A stretch of 64,000 bases of DNA from Natrinema hispanicum (GTDB taxonomy: Archaea > Halobacteriota > Halobacteria > Halobacteriales > Natrialbaceae): contig NZ_SHMP01000003.1 of the NCBI RefSeq assembly GCF_004217335.1, forward strand, positions 372,001 to 436,000, in the 5' to 3' direction. The position numbers and the translations under genes are program-made. Below, one piece after another: positions 12,237 to 48,328 of the stretch (positions are counted from its first letter, which is position 1; every line of letters starts with the position of its first letter). The notes below the pieces were generated by a model. That model was given only the letters and a program-made list of their open reading frames with translations, searched no databases and was not told the origin of the DNA.

Positions 12237-13028
12237 ATGAAAATTCTCGTTACGGTCAAAGAGGTGGCGACCGTCGAAGACGAGTTCGAAATCGAAGGAA
12301 CCGAAATCGCGGGCAAGTACCTCGGTGCCGACTTGAACGAGTGGGACGACTACGCGATCGAAGAGGCCGTCCAGCTCCAAGAAGACGGAATCGCCGACGA
12401 AGTCGTCGCGGTCACCATCGGCCCGGAAGACTGTGAACAGACCATCCGGCAGGCACTCGCGAAGGGCGCAGACCGTGCCGTCCGCGTCTGGGACGACGCC
12501 TTAGCGGACGTCGACTTACTCGACGTCAACGCCAAGACCGAAATCCTGAGCGCCGTCATCGAGGCCGAAGAGCCTGACCTCGTACTGTCCGGCGTCCAGG
12601 CTGGCGACGACAGCTTCGGCGCGACCGGCGTTTCGGTCGCCGAACAGCTCGGCTTCCAGTGGGGTGCCGTCGTCAATCACTTAGAACACGATTTCGAGGA
12701 CGGCGTCGCCTCCGTGCGACGCGAACTCGAGGGCGGCGTCGAAGAGCTGACCGACATCGAGCTTCCGGCAGTGCTGACGATCCAGACGGGGATCAACGAG
12801 CCCCGGTATGCGAGCCTGCGGGGCATTCGGCAGGCCCAGCGCAAGGAACTCGACGTCCAGACGCTCGCCGACATCGGCGTCGACGAGAGCGCGATCGAAA
12901 CCGAACTCGAGCTGACCGACATGTACGAGCCCGAAAGCGAAAGCGACGTGACGACCTGGGAGGGCGGTGCTGAAGAGACGGCCGGGGAGCTCGGTGAACT
13001 GCTCCGCGAGAAGGGGGTGGCACAATGA
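12237..13028 (+). CDS. etfB: Electron transfer flavoprotein subunit beta
   Basis: A 263-residue EtfB/FixA protein: MKILVTVKEV start, AMP/FAD-binding region (LVLSGVQAGDDSFGATG) and the C-terminal docking segment (PRYASLRGIRQAQRKEL). With EtfA it passes electrons from acyl-CoA dehydrogenases or related flavoproteins to the membrane quinone pool. The ATG at 12234 is one codon upstream and equally possible. The stop overlaps the etfA start (ATGA), a sign of translational coupling. An AT-rich stretch at about 12150-12215 contains the likely promoter. Confidence 0.95.
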   Translation: MKILVTVKEVATVEDEFEIEGTEIAGKYLGADLNEWDDYAIEEAVQLQEDGIADEVVAVTIGPEDCEQTIRQALAKGADRAVRVWDDALADVDLLDVNAKTEILSAVIEAEEPDLVLSGVQAGDDSFGATGVSVAEQLGFQWGAVVNHLEHDFEDGVASVRRELEGGVEELTDIELPAVLTIQTGINEPRYASLRGIRQAQRKELDVQTLADIGVDESAIETELELTDMYEPESESDVTTWEGGAEETAGELGELLREKGVAQ

Positions 13029-13978
13029 GCGACGTCCTCGCAGTCGCGGACCACCGCCGCGGAGACCTCCGCGATGTCAGCTACGAGCTCATCACCGCCG
13101 GCCGTGAACTCGCCGACGAAACCGGCGGCGACCTCCATCTGGCGGTCATCAGCGGCACCGTCGACGACTTCGCGGACAAACTCAACCGCGACGGCGTCAA
13201 CGCGATCCACACCGTCGACCACGGCGAGGAGTTCAACCACGACGTCTACGCACAAGCGGTCACGCAGCTCTACGACGAACTCGCCCCACAGTACGTCGTG
13301 ACGCCCAACAGCGTCAACGGACTCGATTACGCGCCCGCCGTCGCGAACGAGCTCGACCTGCCGGTCGTCACCGACACCGTCGATCTCGAGGCCGACGGCG
13401 AGACCCTCGTTGCCACCCGCGAGATGTACGGCGGCAAGGTCGAGACGACCACCGAACTCGAGGGCGACGCCGTCGTGACGATCCGCGGTGCCGAGTGGCC
13501 CGCCGCCGAGGGCACCGGCGACGCCGCGATCGAGGCCTTCGATGTCGACATCGACGAGGAGACAGTCGGCTCGACCGTCACCGGCTTCGAGGAAGTCGGC
13601 GGCGGCGACGTCGATATCAGCGAGGCCGACCTGCTGGTGTCGGTCGGCCGCGGGATCGAAGAAGAGGAGAACCTCGAGATGATCCGTGAACTGGCTGACG
13701 CACTCGACGCGACGCTGTCGTCCTCGCGCCCGATCGTCGACAACGGCTGGCTGCCGAAGAACCGTCAGGTCGGCCAGTCGGGGAAGGTCGTCACGCCCGA
13801 CGTCTACATCGCGATCGGTATCTCGGGTGCCGTCCAGCACGTCGCTGGCATGAAAGGCTCCGATACGATCGTCGCGATCAACACCGACCCCAACGCGCCG
13901 ATCATGGACATTGCCGACTACGCGATCGTCGACGACCTCTTCGATGTCGTCCCCGAACTCATCGACGAATTCCAGTAA
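13025..13978 (+). CDS. etfA: Electron transfer flavoprotein subunit alpha
   Basis: A 317-residue EtfA/FixB protein. The C-terminal FAD-binding domain is canonical: [20 protein letters not shown], then [16 protein letters not shown] and [12 protein letters not shown]. It forms the heterodimer with EtfB and holds the FAD. Its stop codon (TAA at 13976-13978) is followed by a repeated copy of its last codons 137 bp downstream (see repeat 13946-14141). Confidence 0.95.
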
Positions 13979-14141
13979 CTGTATCGCGAACGAGCATCGC
14001 GAGTGTGCGGCTTTTTGATCCAGATTTTTCGCGAGTGGTCGCGAATCCGTGAGCGACCCGAGCGAAAAAAAGGTGGTCGCACGTCGTCCCCGAACTCATC
14101 GACGAATTCCAGTAGCCAAACCGCGAACGAGCAGCGCGAGT
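13946..14141 (+). repeat. etfA tail duplication enclosing the ~55-bp element (copy A)
   Basis: The last 32 bases before and into the etfA stop (13946-13977) recur without change at 14083-14114, and similarity continues past the stop (13985-14004 against 14122-14141), all at a constant 137-bp offset. The second copy ends in TAG instead of TAA. Between the copies lies a short element (core 14021-14075) beginning CAGATTTTTCGCGAG and ending CGAGCGAAAAAAAGGTG. The 13979-14296 gap holds no gene; it also has a palindromic run (TGAACGGAGTGAACGA) near 14157-14172. Confidence 0.88.
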
Positions 14142-15148: not shown

Positions 15149-16264
15149 TCAGACTCGCTCAGCCTGTTTCGTTCCCTCCTCGTGCTCCGTGTCGGATAGT
15201 CGTGATTCTGCGACAGCAAACGTGAGTGTGCTTATAATTCCTAGCACCGTCCCTGCGGTCAGCGCCACCGCGAGATACGTCATCTCGACAGTCCCGAGGA
15301 AGAACGCGCTCACCGCATGAAGGACGACCGCGATCGAAAGCACGTAGAAGGGTGCGTTGAGATACCGCCACTCGAGCGAGCCAGCAATGTACTCGTCAGT
15401 GATCTGACCGAGACTGGTCGTCAGTCCCGCCGCGGCAAACCAGTGGATCGAGCCATAGACGAGCGCGGCGAGGATGACCGGAGCCTCGAGGTCGCCACCG
15501 GACGACGCCCGGATGGCTGCGAGACTGTCGCGTCCACTGACGCCACCAAGGACGAACAGAGCGGCGGCGACGACGTACGCAAACAGGGTCGTCCGGCCGG
15601 CGTATAGCGATCGGCGCGCGCGTTCGACGGCTGTATCGAGCCGGTCACCAAGGCCAAGTCCACGTGAGATGAGATATAGCCCAAGCAGTGTCGACGTCGT
15701 TCCCAACACCATTCCTGGGAGGTTCAGGACGGCTCCGACCAGCGCGAGCGGGTAGATCAATAGGAGAATGCCAAGCGGGATGAGGACCGTCCCGCGCGTC
15801 TCGGGGTCGTCGAGCACTTGCTTGATCGTGTAGTACATCGACTCTAAGTTCTGGGCCTGCCGGACGACGACCCGCCGGACGCCGTCGATGGGGACCCGCG
15901 AGCGGATGATCGGGATAACGGATTCGTCCTGTGCACCGTCGGTGATCACGAGCGCAGTGACGTCTTCGCCAGTCGAGAGACTCGCGAGGACGGTATCGAC
16001 CTCGTCACCGACCTCGCGGTTGGCACTAACGTCGCCCTGATCGTTGCCGGTGACGACGGCGACCTCGACGCTCTCGTCGCGTTCGGCGAGATCGTCGTAG
16101 ATATGCAATCCCTGGAAGATGACGTTGACGTCCGAGTCCTCCGGGTCCGCGGTCGCGAGGGCGACGGCCGCCTCCTCGACTGGGTCGCGACCGATGACCG
16201 GCGTCGAAAAGCCGGTCTTGCGGCCGAGATCGTCGTCGAGGTCGACACAGAGGACCAGCAGCAT
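15149..16264 (-). CDS. DUF373 family membrane protein
   Basis: A 371-residue protein. The N-terminal 150 residues form a soluble alpha/beta domain (MLLVLCVDLDDDLGRKTG start, VALATADPEDSDVNVIF, VAVVTGNDQGD), followed by six or seven membrane spans from about residue 175 (TVLIPLGILLLIYPLALVG onward). This is the archaeal DUF373 architecture; the function is unknown. ATG 16264 starts the conserved VCVDLDDD core; the frame extending to 16747 overlaps the divergent radical SAM gene and is rejected. Shares a 183-base intergenic region with that gene. Confidence 0.88.
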   Translation of the reverse strand: MLLVLCVDLDDDLGRKTGFSTPVIGRDPVEEAAVALATADPEDSDVNVIFQGLHIYDDLAERDESVEVAVVTGNDQGDVSANREVGDEVDTVLASLSTGEDVTALVITDGAQDESVIPIIRSRVPIDGVRRVVVRQAQNLESMYYTIKQVLDDPETRGTVLIPLGILLLIYPLALVGAVLNLPGMVLGTTSTLLGLYLISRGLGLGDRLDTAVERARRSLYAGRTTLFAYVVAAALFVLGGVSGRDSLAAIRASSGGDLEAPVILAALVYGSIHWFAAAGLTTSLGQITDEYIAGSLEWRYLNAPFYVLSIAVVLHAVSAFFLGTVEMTYLAVALTAGTVLGIISTLTFAVAESRLSDTEHEEGTKQAERV

Positions 16265-16447
16265 CGGCTCATAGTTGCACACCGCGCTATTTCCGTCTTC
16301 TGGGACGGACCATCCCAGTCCGTGTCCGATGGGCGTCGGATCGCATCGAGACACTCGAACGGGTCGACCCACGAGACGGATCAACGGGGCACAGCGACGA
16401 CGTGGATTCGTACCCCTTTTGAGGCTCGGACGGGTACGTTTGTCCGA

Positions 16448-17443
16448 ATGATCTCGAAGGGCTGTGAGCAGTGCGCGAAAGGGGGGAAGATGGTGCTGTT
16501 CGTCTACGGCTACTGCGACCAGCGCGACTGCTTTTACTGCCCGCTTGGCGAGAATCGTAAAAACGTCACCGACGTCTACGCCAACGAACGGCTCGTCGAA
16601 AGCGACGAGGACGTCCTCACCGAAGCCCACCGAATGGACGCACTCGGCACATCGATCACTGGCGGCGAACCCCAGGAGGCGCTGGGGCGGACCTGTCACT
16701 ACCTCGAGCTCCTCAAAGACGAGTTCGGCGAGGACCACCACACCCACCTCTACACCGGGATCACCGGGGGTCGCGAGAACATGCGCCGGCTTTCCGAAGC
16801 GGGCTTAGACGAGATTCGCTTCCACCCGCCCTACGAACAGTGGGGTGACCTCCATGGCACCGAATGGGAAGAGATCCTCTATATCGCTCGCGAAGAAGGG
16901 CTCACGCCCGCCTTCGAGATCCCCGGCATCCGCGCCGAGGAGGAGTTCCTCGAATTCCTCGATGAAGGCGCAGCGGAGTTCTGTAACGTCAACGAGTTCG
17001 AGATGAGCGACGGGAACTACCGTCGGATGCAGGAACAGGGGTACGAACTCAAGGAGGACCACATGAGCGCCGTCGACGGCGACCGCGAGGACATCCTCGA
17101 GGTCATGGGCGACCACGAGCGAGTCTACTTCTGTACCTCCGTGTTCAAGGACGCAGCCCAGCACCGCCGCCGCCTGAAACGCATGGCCCGCAACGTCCGC
17201 CGCGAGTTCGACGACATCACCGACGACGGCACGCTCGTCTACGGGAAGACCTATGCCGATCCTGAACGCTTCGAGGCGCTTGGTGTCCCCGAGGAGTTCT
17301 ACACAGTCAAGACGAACCACGTCGAGGTCGCCTGGTGGCTCTTAGAGGAGATGATCGAAGAAGGCGATCTCGAGGACGGTGAGATCGTCGAGCAGTATCC
17401 GACCTATGACGGACAAGTCGTCGAGCGGACGCCGTTAGCGTAG
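16448..17443 (+). CDS. Radical SAM protein (COG2108-like) with CX4CX2C cluster motif
   Basis: A 331-residue protein related to pyruvate-formate-lyase activating enzymes. An N-terminal CEQC (residues 6-9) precedes the cluster motif GYCDQRDCFYCPLG (Cys 23, 28, 31). A Gly-rich SAM motif follows (ITGGEPQEAL), then barrel strands (HLYTGITGG, GLDEIRFHPP, TPAFEIPG, CNVNEFEMSD). The spacing is CX4CX2C rather than the canonical CX3CX2C. Substrate unknown. ATG 16448 is chosen because CEQC and the cluster follow directly; upstream sequence is the DUF373 gene's promoter side. Its C-terminal codons are repeated 108 bp downstream. Confidence 0.85.
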   Translation: MISKGCEQCAKGGKMVLFVYGYCDQRDCFYCPLGENRKNVTDVYANERLVESDEDVLTEAHRMDALGTSITGGEPQEALGRTCHYLELLKDEFGEDHHTHLYTGITGGRENMRRLSEAGLDEIRFHPPYEQWGDLHGTEWEEILYIAREEGLTPAFEIPGIRAEEEFLEFLDEGAAEFCNVNEFEMSDGNYRRMQEQGYELKEDHMSAVDGDREDILEVMGDHERVYFCTSVFKDAAQHRRRLKRMARNVRREFDDITDDGTLVYGKTYADPERFEALGVPEEFYTVKTNHVEVAWWLLEEMIEEGDLEDGEIVEQYPTYDGQVVERTPLA

Positions 17444-17551
17444 GGACCACAAGCGGTTTTTGGTGCAGATTTTTGCGCGAGAGTGCGTCGAACGAACTCG
17501 AGCGGAAAACGGTGTACGTGGTAGGTCGTCGAGCGGACGCCGCCGGCCTGA
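17417..17551 (+). repeat. Radical SAM gene tail duplication around the element (copy B)
   Basis: Eighteen bases near the gene end (17417-17434, coding VVERTP) recur at 17525-17542. The gene ends VVERTPLA-TAG; the downstream copy reads VVERTPPA-TGA in the same register, so similarity at protein level extends beyond the identical bases. Between them is an element (core 17466-17514) starting CAGATTTTTGCGCGAG and ending CGAGCGGAAAACGGTG, clearly related to those after etfA and the PIN-KH ATPase gene. Confidence 0.8.
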
Positions 17552-17725
17552 TCGGGAACGAACAGGGTAAGCGCGCGGTCTTTTGCACCGTATAACGACC
17601 GTCCCGCAGCGTACAACACCCGAAAACGGTCGTTCCAGTCCGTTTCCGATCCGTTCGCCGTCGATCGAGTGGCAGCCGCTTATCGAGGCTGTAGTAATGG
17701 CGCTGTCCCAGAAGACGTGACTACG

Positions 17726-18436
17726 ATGCAATTCCGAAACGCCGCAGTTGTCGCCGTTGCACTGCTTGTGGCCCTCTCCGGGTGTAGTGCCCTCGGGGGT
17801 ACCCCAGCCGGTGAACCGGCAAACGAGACCGATACGAAGTCAGTGACCGAACCAGCCACAGACGGATCCGCCGATGCGAACACCACTTCGACTGCCGAAC
17901 CGAACGGAACCGAGGACGACACGAGCACGGATCGTAGCGATGACACCACCGATGCAGCGTGGTATCCGCCCGAAGAGCCGAATCGGCCGCTGGAAGACAA
18001 ACGCGAGGACCGAATCGAGTCCGTCACGTTCGTCGACAAAGTGCCCGCAGAAAGCGGTGACGGATACTCGAACTTCAACCTCGAGGTCGTCGCCAACACC
18101 AGCATGGAAGACGTTGATCCGGCTGAACACGGCGACTTAGAGGGCGAGCCGTACTTCTTCGTCAAGATCAACGAAGGCGAGGACAACCGGAAGATTATCG
18201 AACGAACGGACGAGGTTAGGATGGACGAAAACGGGACGTTCCACATCGACGTTCGACCGGCAGGGATCGAAGAATTCGGCGCGGGCCCGCTGACCGTCGA
18301 AGTCTTCCTGATGGACGAAGACAAAGACTGGGACGACATCTACGCCTCGGTTGGCACAGAGATTCAGTACACTCCGGATACGAGCGCCGACGGTTCGAAT
18401 TCGACCGCCACCGATTCGGAGTCAACCGAGAGCTAA
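17726..18436 (+). CDS. Secreted lipoprotein, haloarchaeal, function unknown
   Basis: A 236-residue protein with a signal peptide and lipobox (LLVALSGCSAL; Cys about residue 20) for lipid anchoring outside the membrane. A long acidic Thr/Asp-rich linker follows (about 25-85), then a globular domain of about 120 residues (ESVTFVDKVPAESGDGYSN, TFHIDVRPAGIEEFGAGPL, VEVFLMDEDKDWDDIY) and an acidic tail. ATG 17726 places the hydrophobic core correctly. A 9-bp inverted repeat lies upstream (17594-17602 with 17626-17634). It is convergent with the wHTH regulator. No specific family is recognised. Confidence 0.82.
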   Translation: MQFRNAAVVAVALLVALSGCSALGGTPAGEPANETDTKSVTEPATDGSADANTTSTAEPNGTEDDTSTDRSDDTTDAAWYPPEEPNRPLEDKREDRIESVTFVDKVPAESGDGYSNFNLEVVANTSMEDVDPAEHGDLEGEPYFFVKINEGEDNRKIIERTDEVRMDENGTFHIDVRPAGIEEFGAGPLTVEVFLMDEDKDWDDIYASVGTEIQYTPDTSADGSNSTATDSESTES

Positions 18437-18468
18437 GTATCGGCCCCGGATGGTAACGATCCGGTCGA

Positions 18469-19839
18469 TCAGTCGAAATTAGTCAGATCGACGCCAGGCA
18501 ACGTGATGAGATTCTCCCGTCCGATGCGGAGTTTCTCGATTTCGTCATCGTCGTCCATCTTCGACAGCAACTGCGAGACCTTGGCGTTCGACCAGCCGGT
18601 CTCCGAAACGATCGACGCCTGTTTCATCCGGCCGCCGTTTTGTTTGAGGAGACGGAGGACACGCTCCTCGTCGCTTAACAGCTCGGGGTCGACATCCTGA
18701 TGGGTGGCATCCTCGAACTCGAGACTGGTTCCGCGACCACGGTCAGCATCGTTTTCTCCTGCGACGGCCCCGTCAGCTGACTCCGAGCCGGCCAGAGAGT
18801 CCCCAGATCCGGATACGGACTCGGACCTGCTGGCGGTCTCCGTCGCTGGAGCAGCGTGCTCGTCGGTATCGCGGTCGCTGAACCCGAGCCGTTCGGGCAA
18901 CGGCAGTCGATCGATCGGGATCGGAAGCTCGGTCCTGCCGTCACGTTTCGCCAACAGGTAGCCACCGGTTCCGATGGTAGCGATGAGCACGAGGATACCC
19001 CCGATCAGCCAGCCAGACATCGACGACGGAAGGGTTCCGGTCCGAACGAACACGATCTCGAGTTCGTCGGCGGTAAACTCATAGGGACCATCCCAGGTGA
19101 GCGATGTCGGCGTCTCGAGGGCGTATTGAGGTGGTGTTTCGACGACGAGACGCTGTCCTGCGGTCAGTCCCATCCACGTTCCATCATCCGTCTGAAACGC
19201 ATCACCGAAGTGGATTCGATCACCGTCGACGGTCGCAAAGTTGGTCCAGGTAAACGAATAGGAGATCACCCCGATCCGGGCGTTCTCGGTGGTGGACTTT
19301 GATTCATCGCTGCCGTCACCGTCGGCCGGTGGCTCAATGATGCGCGGTTCGTCCCACTGGGTGTCTTTGATCGACATCTCGCGACCGGTTTCCCGTTGAG
19401 CGATCTGACGGAAGCGTTCGAACTGCTCGGGTGAGAGCCCAACAGTTCGCTCGCCGGCCGTGACCTGGTCGGCATACGCTCGAAACGAATCAGCTTCGCT
19501 CTCGTTCGTCAGGAGAAACCGACTTTCGATTGTCCATCGAACGTCCCCATTATCGCGAACGGTGAGCCGAATGACCTGCTTTGGCGTCGCTTCCGGAGTC
19601 GAACCAGTCGACTGTACTGCAGTGGGAACCGATACTGACTGATCGACTGACAACGCGTGAGAATCACTCGAAAGGGGAGACGCGACGTGGTCCAATGATA
19701 CACGGGACCGATCGGAACCTGCAGCCGTCTGTTCAAGCGCGGGGGAAGCGGCTGCACCCGGTATAGCGACCACCGTCCCGAGGAAAGACGCCACCAGGAG
19801 GGCTGAGAGGGCAACTGTGATGGCGGTGGATACCCGCAT
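18469..19839 (-). CDS. Membrane-spanning winged-helix regulator (DUF7345/DUF7343-like)
   Basis: A 456-residue protein from ATG 19839. Layout: signal peptide (ALSALLVASFLGTVVA), an extracellular beta-rich domain (about 75-265: IRLTVRDNGDVRWTIESRF, YSFTWTNFATVDGDRIHFG), one membrane span (WLIGGILVLIATIGTGGYLL), an acidic Ser-rich linker, and a C-terminal winged helix (SDEERVLRLLKQNGGRMKQA, ETGWSNAKVSQLLSKMDDD). The topology puts a sensing domain outside and DNA binding inside, a one-protein transmembrane regulator common in haloarchaea. Target genes are unknown; the convergent lipoprotein gene is the nearest candidate. Confidence 0.85.
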   Translation of the reverse strand: MRVSTAITVALSALLVASFLGTVVAIPGAAASPALEQTAAGSDRSRVSLDHVASPLSSDSHALSVDQSVSVPTAVQSTGSTPEATPKQVIRLTVRDNGDVRWTIESRFLLTNESEADSFRAYADQVTAGERTVGLSPEQFERFRQIAQRETGREMSIKDTQWDEPRIIEPPADGDGSDESKSTTENARIGVISYSFTWTNFATVDGDRIHFGDAFQTDDGTWMGLTAGQRLVVETPPQYALETPTSLTWDGPYEFTADELEIVFVRTGTLPSSMSGWLIGGILVLIATIGTGGYLLAKRDGRTELPIPIDRLPLPERLGFSDRDTDEHAAPATETASRSESVSGSGDSLAGSESADGAVAGENDADRGRGTSLEFEDATHQDVDPELLSDEERVLRLLKQNGGRMKQASIVSETGWSNAKVSQLLSKMDDDDEIEKLRIGRENLITLPGVDLTNFD

Positions 19840-46217: not shown

Positions 46218-48092
46218 ATGAACGTCGTGCCGGATACGAGCGTGGTCATCGATGGCCGCGTTTCGGCGACAATCGAAGACGGGCAGTTCGAGGGAGCGAC
46301 GATCTGTGTCCCCGAAGCAGTCGTCGCGGAACTCGAGGCGCAGGCCAACGACGGACTCGACAGCGGCTGGGACGGCTTAGAGGAGCTCCAGCGGCTGGCA
46401 GAGTTGGCCGACGAGGGCGTCGTCGACCTCGAGTACGTCGGCGAGCGGCCAAGCGCGATCGAACGAGGCCACGCCTCCGAAGGCGAAATCGACGCCCTGA
46501 TCCGCGATCTCGCGGAGGAACTCGATGCGACGTTCGTCACCAGCGACGTCGTCCAGGCGGAGGTCGCACAGGCGAAAGGACTCGATGTCGAACACGTCTC
46601 CCCCGAGGTTCGGCGGGTCGGCACGCTGGCCGTCGAGGAATACTTCGACGACGAGACGATGAGCGTCCATCTGAAAACGGACGCCATCCCGCGGGCCAAA
46701 CGAGGCGAACTCGGCGCGATGCACTACGAGGAGATCGCCGACGAGCCACTCGACGAGGCGACGATGGACGAGTACGCCCGCGAAGTCATCGACGGTGCCA
46801 AAGAGGCCCACGACGGCTTCATCGAGCTGTCAGAGCCGGGCATGAAGATCGTCCAGTTCCGGGATTACCGGATCGCGATCGGCCGCCCGCCGTTTTCCGA
46901 CGGCATCGAGATCACCGCCGTCCGGCCGATCGCCCAGACGGACATCGACGACTACGAGCACGCCGACGAACTCAAAGAACGGCTGCTCGAGCGCCAGCGC
47001 GGCGTCCTGATCTCGGGTGCGCCCGGGGCCGGGAAGTCGACGTTCGCGCAGGCGGTCGCCCGCTACATTTCCGATCACGACTACTCGGTCAAGACGATGG
47101 AGAAACCACGGGACCTGCAGGTCGGCCCAGACATCACCCAATACACCGAACTGGGCGGGGAAATGGCCAAAACGGCCGACGCCCTGCTGATGGTCCGGCC
47201 GGACTACACCATCTACGACGAGGTCCGCAAGACCGACGACTTCGAGGTCTTCGCCGACATGCGGCTTGCGGGCGTGGGCATGATCGGTGTCGTCCACGCG
47301 ACCCGCCCGATCGACTCGCTGCAGCGGCTCGTCGGCCGCGTCGAACTCGGGATGATTCCCCAGGTCGCCGACACGGTCGTCTACATCGAAGCCGGGAAAG
47401 TCGAGACGGTCTACGACGTCAGGACGACGGTCAAAGTGCCCGCCGGACTCACCGAGGAGGACCTCGCCCGGCCGGTCATCCAGGTCACGAACTTCCAGAC
47501 CGGCGAGCCCGAATACGAGATCTACACCTTCAACCGCCAGGTCGTCACCGTCCCGCTGAAAGACGAGGAAGGCGGCCCCGGCAGCGAGTCCGGCGTTGAC
47601 CGCATCGCCAAACAGGAGATCGAACGCGAGATCCGCTCGATCGCCCGCGGCTACGTCGACGTCCACCTCAAAAGCCAGGACAGAGCCGTCGTCTACGTCG
47701 AAGAAGACGATATCTCGAGTGTCATTGGCAAAGGCGGCGGCCGGATCACCGACATCGAAAACCGGCTGGGGATCGACATCGACGTTCGCACCCACGACGA
47801 GAATCCCCACTACGGTGCCGGCGGTGGTGGTGGTGGCGCGAGTGCAAACAACGCCGGTGGCGGGTCACAGGCCGGCCAGATGGTCCAACCCGAGATCACC
47901 TCCCGGCACATCGTTATCCCCGTCGACGGCAACCACGGCGAAACCGTCGAAGTCCAGGCCGCCGGCGACTACCTCTTTACGGCGACGGTGAGCCGCGGGG
48001 GCGAAATTCAGGTGTCGCGCGGAAGTGCGATCGCCGAGGAACTCGAGCGGGCGATCGACCGGAAAGACCCGGTCACGGTCGTCCCCTCGTAA
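46218..48092 (+). CDS. PIN-domain/KH-domain ATPase (PINA-like)
   Basis: A 624-residue protein of the COG1855 type. PIN nuclease-like domain first (about 1-130: VVPDTSVVIDGRVSA, FVTSDVVQAEVAQAKG, with Asp residues of the active site), then a PilT/VirB11-like hexameric ATPase (Walker A SGAPGAGKST at 266-275, Walker B-like LMVRPDYTIYDEVR), then a KH domain (about 485-545: VVYVEEDDISSVIGKGGGRI) with a Gly-rich insert. The Sulfolobus PINA protein binds a Holliday-junction resolvase and a helicase and drives branch migration, so a repair role is likely. Its tail is duplicated downstream. Confidence 0.92.
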   Translation: MNVVPDTSVVIDGRVSATIEDGQFEGATICVPEAVVAELEAQANDGLDSGWDGLEELQRLAELADEGVVDLEYVGERPSAIERGHASEGEIDALIRDLAEELDATFVTSDVVQAEVAQAKGLDVEHVSPEVRRVGTLAVEEYFDDETMSVHLKTDAIPRAKRGELGAMHYEEIADEPLDEATMDEYAREVIDGAKEAHDGFIELSEPGMKIVQFRDYRIAIGRPPFSDGIEITAVRPIAQTDIDDYEHADELKERLLERQRGVLISGAPGAGKSTFAQAVARYISDHDYSVKTMEKPRDLQVGPDITQYTELGGEMAKTADALLMVRPDYTIYDEVRKTDDFEVFADMRLAGVGMIGVVHATRPIDSLQRLVGRVELGMIPQVADTVVYIEAGKVETVYDVRTTVKVPAGLTEEDLARPVIQVTNFQTGEPEYEIYTFNRQVVTVPLKDEEGGPGSESGVDRIAKQEIEREIRSIARGYVDVHLKSQDRAVVYVEEDDISSVIGKGGGRITDIENRLGIDIDVRTHDENPHYGAGGGGGGASANNAGGGSQAGQMVQPEITSRHIVIPVDGNHGETVEVQAAGDYLFTATVSRGGEIQVSRGSAIAEELERAIDRKDPVTVVPS

Positions 48093-48328
48093 GCGGTCGA
48101 ACCGCGAGGGAGCGACGCGAACGAGCGGCTCTTTTGATGTCGTCGCGAGTGTATCGAGCGACGGGCCAGCGAGAGCTTTGCTCTCGCAGGGCAGATTTTT
48201 GCGCGAGCGGTAAGCGAACGAAGTGAGCGCACCCGAGCGGAAAAAGGTGCGCGCGTGGGAGTGCGATCGCGGAGGAACTCGAGCGGGCGATCGACCGGAA
48301 AGCGCCGATCACGGTCGTTCCGTCGTAG
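48018..48328 (+). repeat. PIN-KH ATPase tail duplication around the element (copy C)
   Basis: The last 25 codons including stop (48018-48092) recur at 48254-48328 with a constant 236-bp offset and no indel. The downstream copy stays in frame and ends TAG instead of TAA. Nine base differences: six are silent (in CGC/CGT, GGA/GGG, GCC/GCG, GTC/GTT, CCC/CCG and the stop) and three change two residues (Asp to Ala, Val to Ile). Between them lies the element core 48192-48249, beginning CAGATTTTTGCGCGAG and ending CCGAGCGGAAAAAGGTG. No gene lies in 48093-48384. Confidence 0.9.

Follow-up and report, generated by a model that had tools for sequence, protein, structure and literature searches.

A terminator-like hairpin often framed by direct repeats of host gene 3' ends in haloarchaea

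Introduction

Two kinds of small mobile repeats, the PATEs and the SMRs, have been described in Haloquadratum walsbyi; both are palindromic and lack a transposase, and the terminal-only PATEs measure 52 bp (PMC3119063). The PATEs derive from IS605-type transposons, and the SMRs carry terminal inverted repeats that are unrelated to transposons (PMC3119063). REP elements occur in more than 100 copies per genome (PMC2817692) and fall into two super-families, tagged GTAG or CGTC (PMC3733652).

In 64,000 nucleotides of Natrinema hispanicum DNA (the window), the 3' ends of an etfA gene, a radical SAM gene, and a PIN-KH ATPase gene are each repeated downstream, and one sequence of about 54-64 bp, here called E, is common to all three tail repeats. 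Like the PATEs and SMRs, E is haloarchaeal, very short and palindromic and has no transposase, but those repeats were reported without target duplication, without a tie to gene 3' ends and without copies of host-gene tails (PMC3119063). Direct repeats flanked about 45% of the E copies, and a non-exhaustive search found no relation to IS605 ends; inverted ends are present in E, yet the direct repeats that flank it come from the host gene. The REP, BIME and REPIN elements, which are associated with RAYT transposases, are also short intergenic imperfect hairpins, but they are of high copy number and no gene-tail duplication has been described for them, whereas E has no tag (its feet are CCAGA and GGTGG, not GTAG or CGTC) and is present in genomes without Y1_Tnp (G004, G006, G008, G020, and G021).

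Integrative elements that insert at gene 3' ends restore the gene end and displace the native tail to the far side, so that tandems of n inserts have n+1 repeats. Arrays of E likewise restore the gene end, displace the native tail and give n+1 repeats; in contrast to integrative elements, E carries neither an integrase nor any other gene, and it lies at dozens of genes with differing tails and no fixed att sequence. Diversity-generating retroelements have a direct repeat of a gene 3' end and a downstream hairpin, an arrangement also seen at E loci, but E is accompanied by neither a reverse transcriptase nor adenine-directed mutation. No known family fits E by its defining features, and PATE/SMR and REP are the nearest kind. 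A description of E-like elements was not found in the open literature searched, and as far as this literature shows, the gene-tail framing, the precise end and the concerted evolution of E are new.

Results

Tail repeats in the window

The longest open reading frame of the radical SAM gene spans 16103-17443 on the forward strand, although the true start likely lies further in and the gene is shorter. Its product matched Pfam Radical_SAM at 2.6e-6, slightly under the curated cut-off, and orthologues ending in VVERTPLA and a stop codon were present in all 25 genomes of the genus. A preliminary description of this DNA had claimed an exact 18-bp repeat at the end of this gene, with differing last codons, and both claims were borne out: positions 17417-17434 are identical to 17525-17542 (GTCGTCGAGCGGACGCCG) at an offset of 108 bp, with copy 1 ending in Pro-Leu-Ala-TAG (stop at 17441-17443) and copy 2 in Pro-Pro-Ala-TGA (17549-17551). 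The last 27 nt of the gene (17417-17443) constitute tail 1, which is followed on the same strand by a short 3'UTR (17444-17461) whose first T-tract, at 17457-17461, is the presumed terminator by the T-stretch motif of PMC7237163. E itself, 54 nt long, occupies 17462-17515 as GGTGCAGATTTTT-hairpin-AAAACGGTGT, and a linker (17516-17524), in which the junction of CACGTGGCAG with GTCGTCGAG is common to most orthologues with E and a tail, leads to tail 2 (17525-17551), the displaced gene end with its own TGA stop.

In three third-order Markov simulations of 64 kb, matches scoring about like the 18-bp repeat numbered 0, 0 and 1, and taken alone the match would be weak evidence. The repeat is not due to chance, since E separates the two copies in each of the three cases in the window, since the radical SAM orthologues have the same arrangement, each with its own tails, and since 45% of 131 high-GC E instances exceeded the 99th percentile of mismatched-pair controls.

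The other two cases claimed earlier were also recovered in a scan of the window, and both are stronger than that of the radical SAM gene. In etfA (13025-13978, forward strand, an open reading frame with Pfam ETF_alpha and ETF), the sequence at 13946-14004 recurs 137 bp further on, at 14083-14141; tail 1 is at 13946-13978, a 60-nt E of the CC/GG type is at 14017-14076, and the second copy comprises tail 2, with its TAG stop at 14113-14115, and the start of the native 3'UTR. In the PIN-ATPase-KH gene (46218-48092, forward strand, an open reading frame with Pfam PIN, T2SSE, and KH_1), the sequence at 48016-48091 recurs 236 bp further on, at 48252-48327, the copies being about 80-90% alike; here tail 1 is at 48016-48092, an E of the GC/GC type at 48188-48251, and tail 2 at 48252-48328, with its TAG stop at 48326-48328.

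Structure and distribution of E

E consists of a T-tract, GGTxyAGATTTTT, a variable hairpin, and AAAAAGGTy'x'. From GGTxy to GGTy'x', it measures 54 nt at the radical SAM gene, 60 nt at etfA and about 63 nt at the PIN-ATPase-KH gene, in agreement with the ranking of core lengths given before, in which the radical SAM copy was the shortest. All three cores in the window folded alike. The radical SAM core was the weakest fold of the three (RNA z = -1.0), so the support for it comes from the family. Of the two readings proposed for the differing lengths, a folded structure with a variable loop proved right, E being an imperfect hairpin with a conserved base and a distal stem whose sequence and length differ among copies, with changes that compensate each other. 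The alternative, a deletion series, was not supported: the loops range from about 17 to more than 100 nt across copies, and the stems differ by sequence turnover rather than by nested deletions.

The outer pairs xy and y'x' were reverse-complementary in 131 of 134 copies. Where xy was other than CC, complementarity was kept in 14 of 15 copies, against a mean of 6 and a maximum of 12 in shuffles, and at the PIN-KH locus the states GC/GC, GG/CC, and GT/AC were read by eye in different species. The stem pairs also covaried (80-86% Watson-Crick versus shuffle maxima of 59-69%), the segments GAG and CCCGA were conserved, and in all 40 comparisons with the antisense strand the sense strand gave the more stable fold under both RNA and DNA parameters. 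Together, the covariation, the conserved segments and the strand-specific stability indicate that the fold of E is a selected sense-strand structure. GAG and CCCGA may face each other as tandem G-A pairs; a K-turn was considered for these pairs and rejected, since its three-nucleotide bulge is absent and tandem G-A pairs fit instead. The Rfam 15 covariance models gave no match to positions 16000-18500 of the window up to an E-value of 1.

The motif TTTTTGGTCCAGATTTTTGCG with at most 3 mismatches had 8 matches in the genome of origin, and its reversed control had 0. Exact matches to the E motif among genome contigs were mostly haloarchaeal, and in a phylum-wide search TTTTTGGTNNAGATTTTT was found in 27 of 53 genomes of Halobacteriales, the order to which this genome belongs, versus 4 of 242 others; the four have A/T at xy and are presumably due to chance. 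By this search, E is restricted to the order. Plasmids yielded no match to E. Viral spread was rejected as well, the five exact matches in IMG/VR all being of low GC content (0.30-0.42) and chance-like.

Junctions and arrays

A direct repeat across E was present in 45% of the 131 high-GC instances at the threshold given above, as against 1% in controls. In 0.92 Mb of haloarchaeal loci, which were chosen for holding E and whose many other gene ends gave no tail duplication, 40 of 41 gene-tail duplications contained E (33 by pattern and 7 by eye), and the sole E-free one was a coding overlap. Chance and codon bias, the latter named in the preliminary description as what might explain such matches in random gene-end pairs, were ruled out by the mismatched pairs and by the gene ends without E.

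The right end of E is precise, with tail 2 beginning 4 nt (13 groups) or 5 nt (8 groups) past GGTGG in 21 of 29 independent gene groups, and the point within the gene at which the tail starts is variable. Microhomology between the end of E and the gene was not in excess (3.21 versus 3.21 in the control, 29 gene groups), which argues against an origin of the junctions by microhomology or slippage. A uniform target duplication ending at the T-tract was also considered; one locus (L303) has this appearance, but across loci the 3'UTR position at which the similarity stops varies.

Every inspected array (L193, L208, L300, L302-L305) contained n Es and n+1 tails, and its last tail had its own, distinct stop and 3'UTR, those of the native gene end. 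Mismatches between tails were concentrated at third codon positions (4.9, 5.2 and 13.6% at the three positions), and the aligned stop of tail 2 was still a stop in 47 of 48 cases, a pattern that repeated renewal of tail 2 from functional gene ends, or exchange with them, would produce.

Loss, amplification and concerted evolution of tails among relatives

Orthologues of the three genes were compared across the 25 genomes of the genus with a tree, and the states seen were E with a tail, E alone, arrays, remnants, and nothing. The etfA gene of G012 has no E and continues with the stop and 3'UTR that its relatives, the present genome included, have behind tail 2. This is a clean loss of E, since the native end is identical and G012 is nested in the tree among species with E and a tail; it is the sole case in which the direction of change was polarised by the tree. 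At the PIN-ATPase-KH gene, G017 has no E, and its gene end matches tail 2 and the downstream DNA over 148 bp. The match to tail 1 is much poorer, which places tail 2 at the native position. By contrast, the final ~26 bp of tail 1, like the 3'UTR after it, resemble those of G024. Horizontal gain of E is not always distinguishable from its excision, and the history of this locus is either one gain in the present genome (G000) or losses in G017 and G012.

Exchange between tails left traces as well. In the etfA gene of G008, tail 1 ends in EEFQ and tail 2 is of the EEFEG type of other species. G020 carries a recent doubling of the radical SAM unit (L208), in which the middle tail has the junction of the old tail fused to the body of tail 1; such a crossover chimera is what unequal exchange leaves behind. 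Two tails from one genome resembled each other more than orthologous tails from different genomes did in 10 of 11 gene groups (mean identity 0.88-0.98 within and 0.45-0.89 between), and the one group without clear concerted evolution, MAFTG, is probably an exception due to alignment. Tail junction sequences, on the other hand, were common to different genera. Taken with the cases of loss and doubling, these two observations say that the junctions are probably old and that the tails appear to be still homogenised by recombination.

A second etfA copy was seen in several genomes (L239 (G000:C7), L240, L241, L242), without E in three of the four. In G019, the two etfA copies differ in the state of E and tail though their 3'UTRs start identically.

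Putative role in transcription termination

In Haloferax volcanii, a T stretch is the chief terminator motif between genes (PMC7237163). E begins directly after the T-tract of the gene's terminator, and a same-strand gene end preceded the tail-flanked E in 52 of 56 cases, at a median of 35 nt from stop to T-tract. Of the tail-less Es with a convergent gene within range, about half had their right end 5-8 nt from the stop of that gene. We infer from this placement that E may be a transcription terminator or insulator, often for both strands. Known haloarchaeal intrinsic terminators likewise have T-tracts past gene ends, and hairpins near some 3' ends, but they are not described with the GGTxyAGATTTTT...AAAAAGGTy'x' layout, the covarying strand-specific stem or the gene-tail repeats of E (PMC7237163).

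Hairpins like GCGAACGAAGTGAGCG, rich in tandem G-A, precede the T-tracts in haloarchaeal 3'UTRs at many gene ends, also those without E (for example, at 13979-14016 of the window). E also adjoins convergent tRNA-Pro genes, a few nt separating its right end from the 3' end of the tRNA (L144 977-1050; L182 3721-3792; L111; L301), and what the array in L301 repeats seems to be part of the tRNA end, not a protein-gene tail.

Discussion

Our results suggest that E is probably a terminator-like hairpin between repeats of the host gene end, which is gained, amplified, homogenised and lost by recombination between the tails. E would be held between direct repeats of the gene's 3' end, in the order tail 1, stop, 3'UTR, E, tail 2, native stop and 3'UTR, and host homologous recombination between tails could let E enter alleles that lack it, extend arrays, keep the tails alike and remove E precisely. 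Such a process would resemble Campbell integration and excision, the gene tail serving as the attachment site, and it would always leave the coding sequence intact; n inserts with n+1 direct repeats and clean reversion, as in Campbell-type events, were both found. However, recombination that makes tails evolve in concert leaves the primary junctions unexplained, and tail repeats down to 18 bp are near or below the usual lengths for homologous recombination. It is possible, if rather doubtful, that the precise right end of E is the substrate of a dedicated haloarchaeal activity that joins E to the 3' end of the host gene, E then being a protein-less element with any host gene as its attachment site.

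Three other origins were weighed. A mobile miniature element (MITE, REP or PATE-like) served by a transposase acting in trans, with unusually long and variable target-site duplications, would account for the imperfect terminal inverted repeats (CCAGATTTTT/AAAAAGGTGG), the precise right end without microhomology, the flanking direct repeats and the fact that single genes (etfA, radical SAM, and argF) have several independent junctions. It is nonetheless unlikely: E lies at the same genes across genera (ileS, argF, gatB, etfA, and elp3-like) in few copies per genome, and its junctions are common to several genera, so E does not behave as actively mobile. Similarity between copies usually stops in the 3'UTR with no single fixed distal site, and no Y1 transposase was found in the five E-bearing genomes named above; its absence from G004 and G020 means that the present-day arrays do not require it.

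Replication slippage at the hairpin, giving simple tandem duplications whose extra copies decay neutrally and making E nothing special beyond a hairpin, agrees with the existence of tandem arrays, with the frequent decay of distal copies and with the codon-position mismatches, which fit one constrained and one drifting copy. Against this origin, which we regard as decidedly improbable, stand the right end fixed 4-5 nt past E without microhomology, the count of n Es to n+1 tails instead of n to n, the lack of tail duplication at the other terminators in the 0.92 Mb, and the compensatory changes with which E is conserved throughout the order. Copying from RNA, by retrohoming or in the manner of a diversity-generating retroelement, would have the E-bearing 3' end of the mRNA reverse transcribed into the gene tail, leaving the 3' end fixed and the 5' end variable. 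The fixed right end and the variable gene position do resemble target-primed reverse transcription, and gene-tail repeats with a downstream hairpin recall the VR/TR and cruciform of those retroelements, but RVT_1 was found in none of the 25 genomes of the genus, with positive controls, and the mismatches had no adenine bias (A 0.102/0.116 versus T 0.121/0.109). Such an origin is therefore largely refuted in this genus and very improbable.

Under recombination between gene tails, the reading that we favour, E illustrates how non-coding DNA can persist harmlessly beside essential genes (ileS, gatB, and etfA), framed by copies of the gene end, and E loci would serve as a natural test system for recombination over short distances in polyploid archaea. 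E also represents a 3'-end structure that is conserved and covaries. Haloarchaeal assemblies and annotations call for caution, since collapsed arrays and spurious gene tails should be expected in them.

Near-exact or exact tandem arrays of tail, UTR and E with a period of about 100-230 bp, which short-read assemblies may collapse, were seen at L105, L260, L264, L300, and L302. The gatB end with E and a tail copy occurs twice in contig C3 of the present genome (G000:C3:746 and G000:C3:93926; L024 and L025), in opposite orientation and once at the contig edge, and is either a repeat or an assembly artefact. In the same genome, the ileS tail is repeated twice (L009, G000:C1:773500-774800), with a decayed second E between tails 2 and 3.
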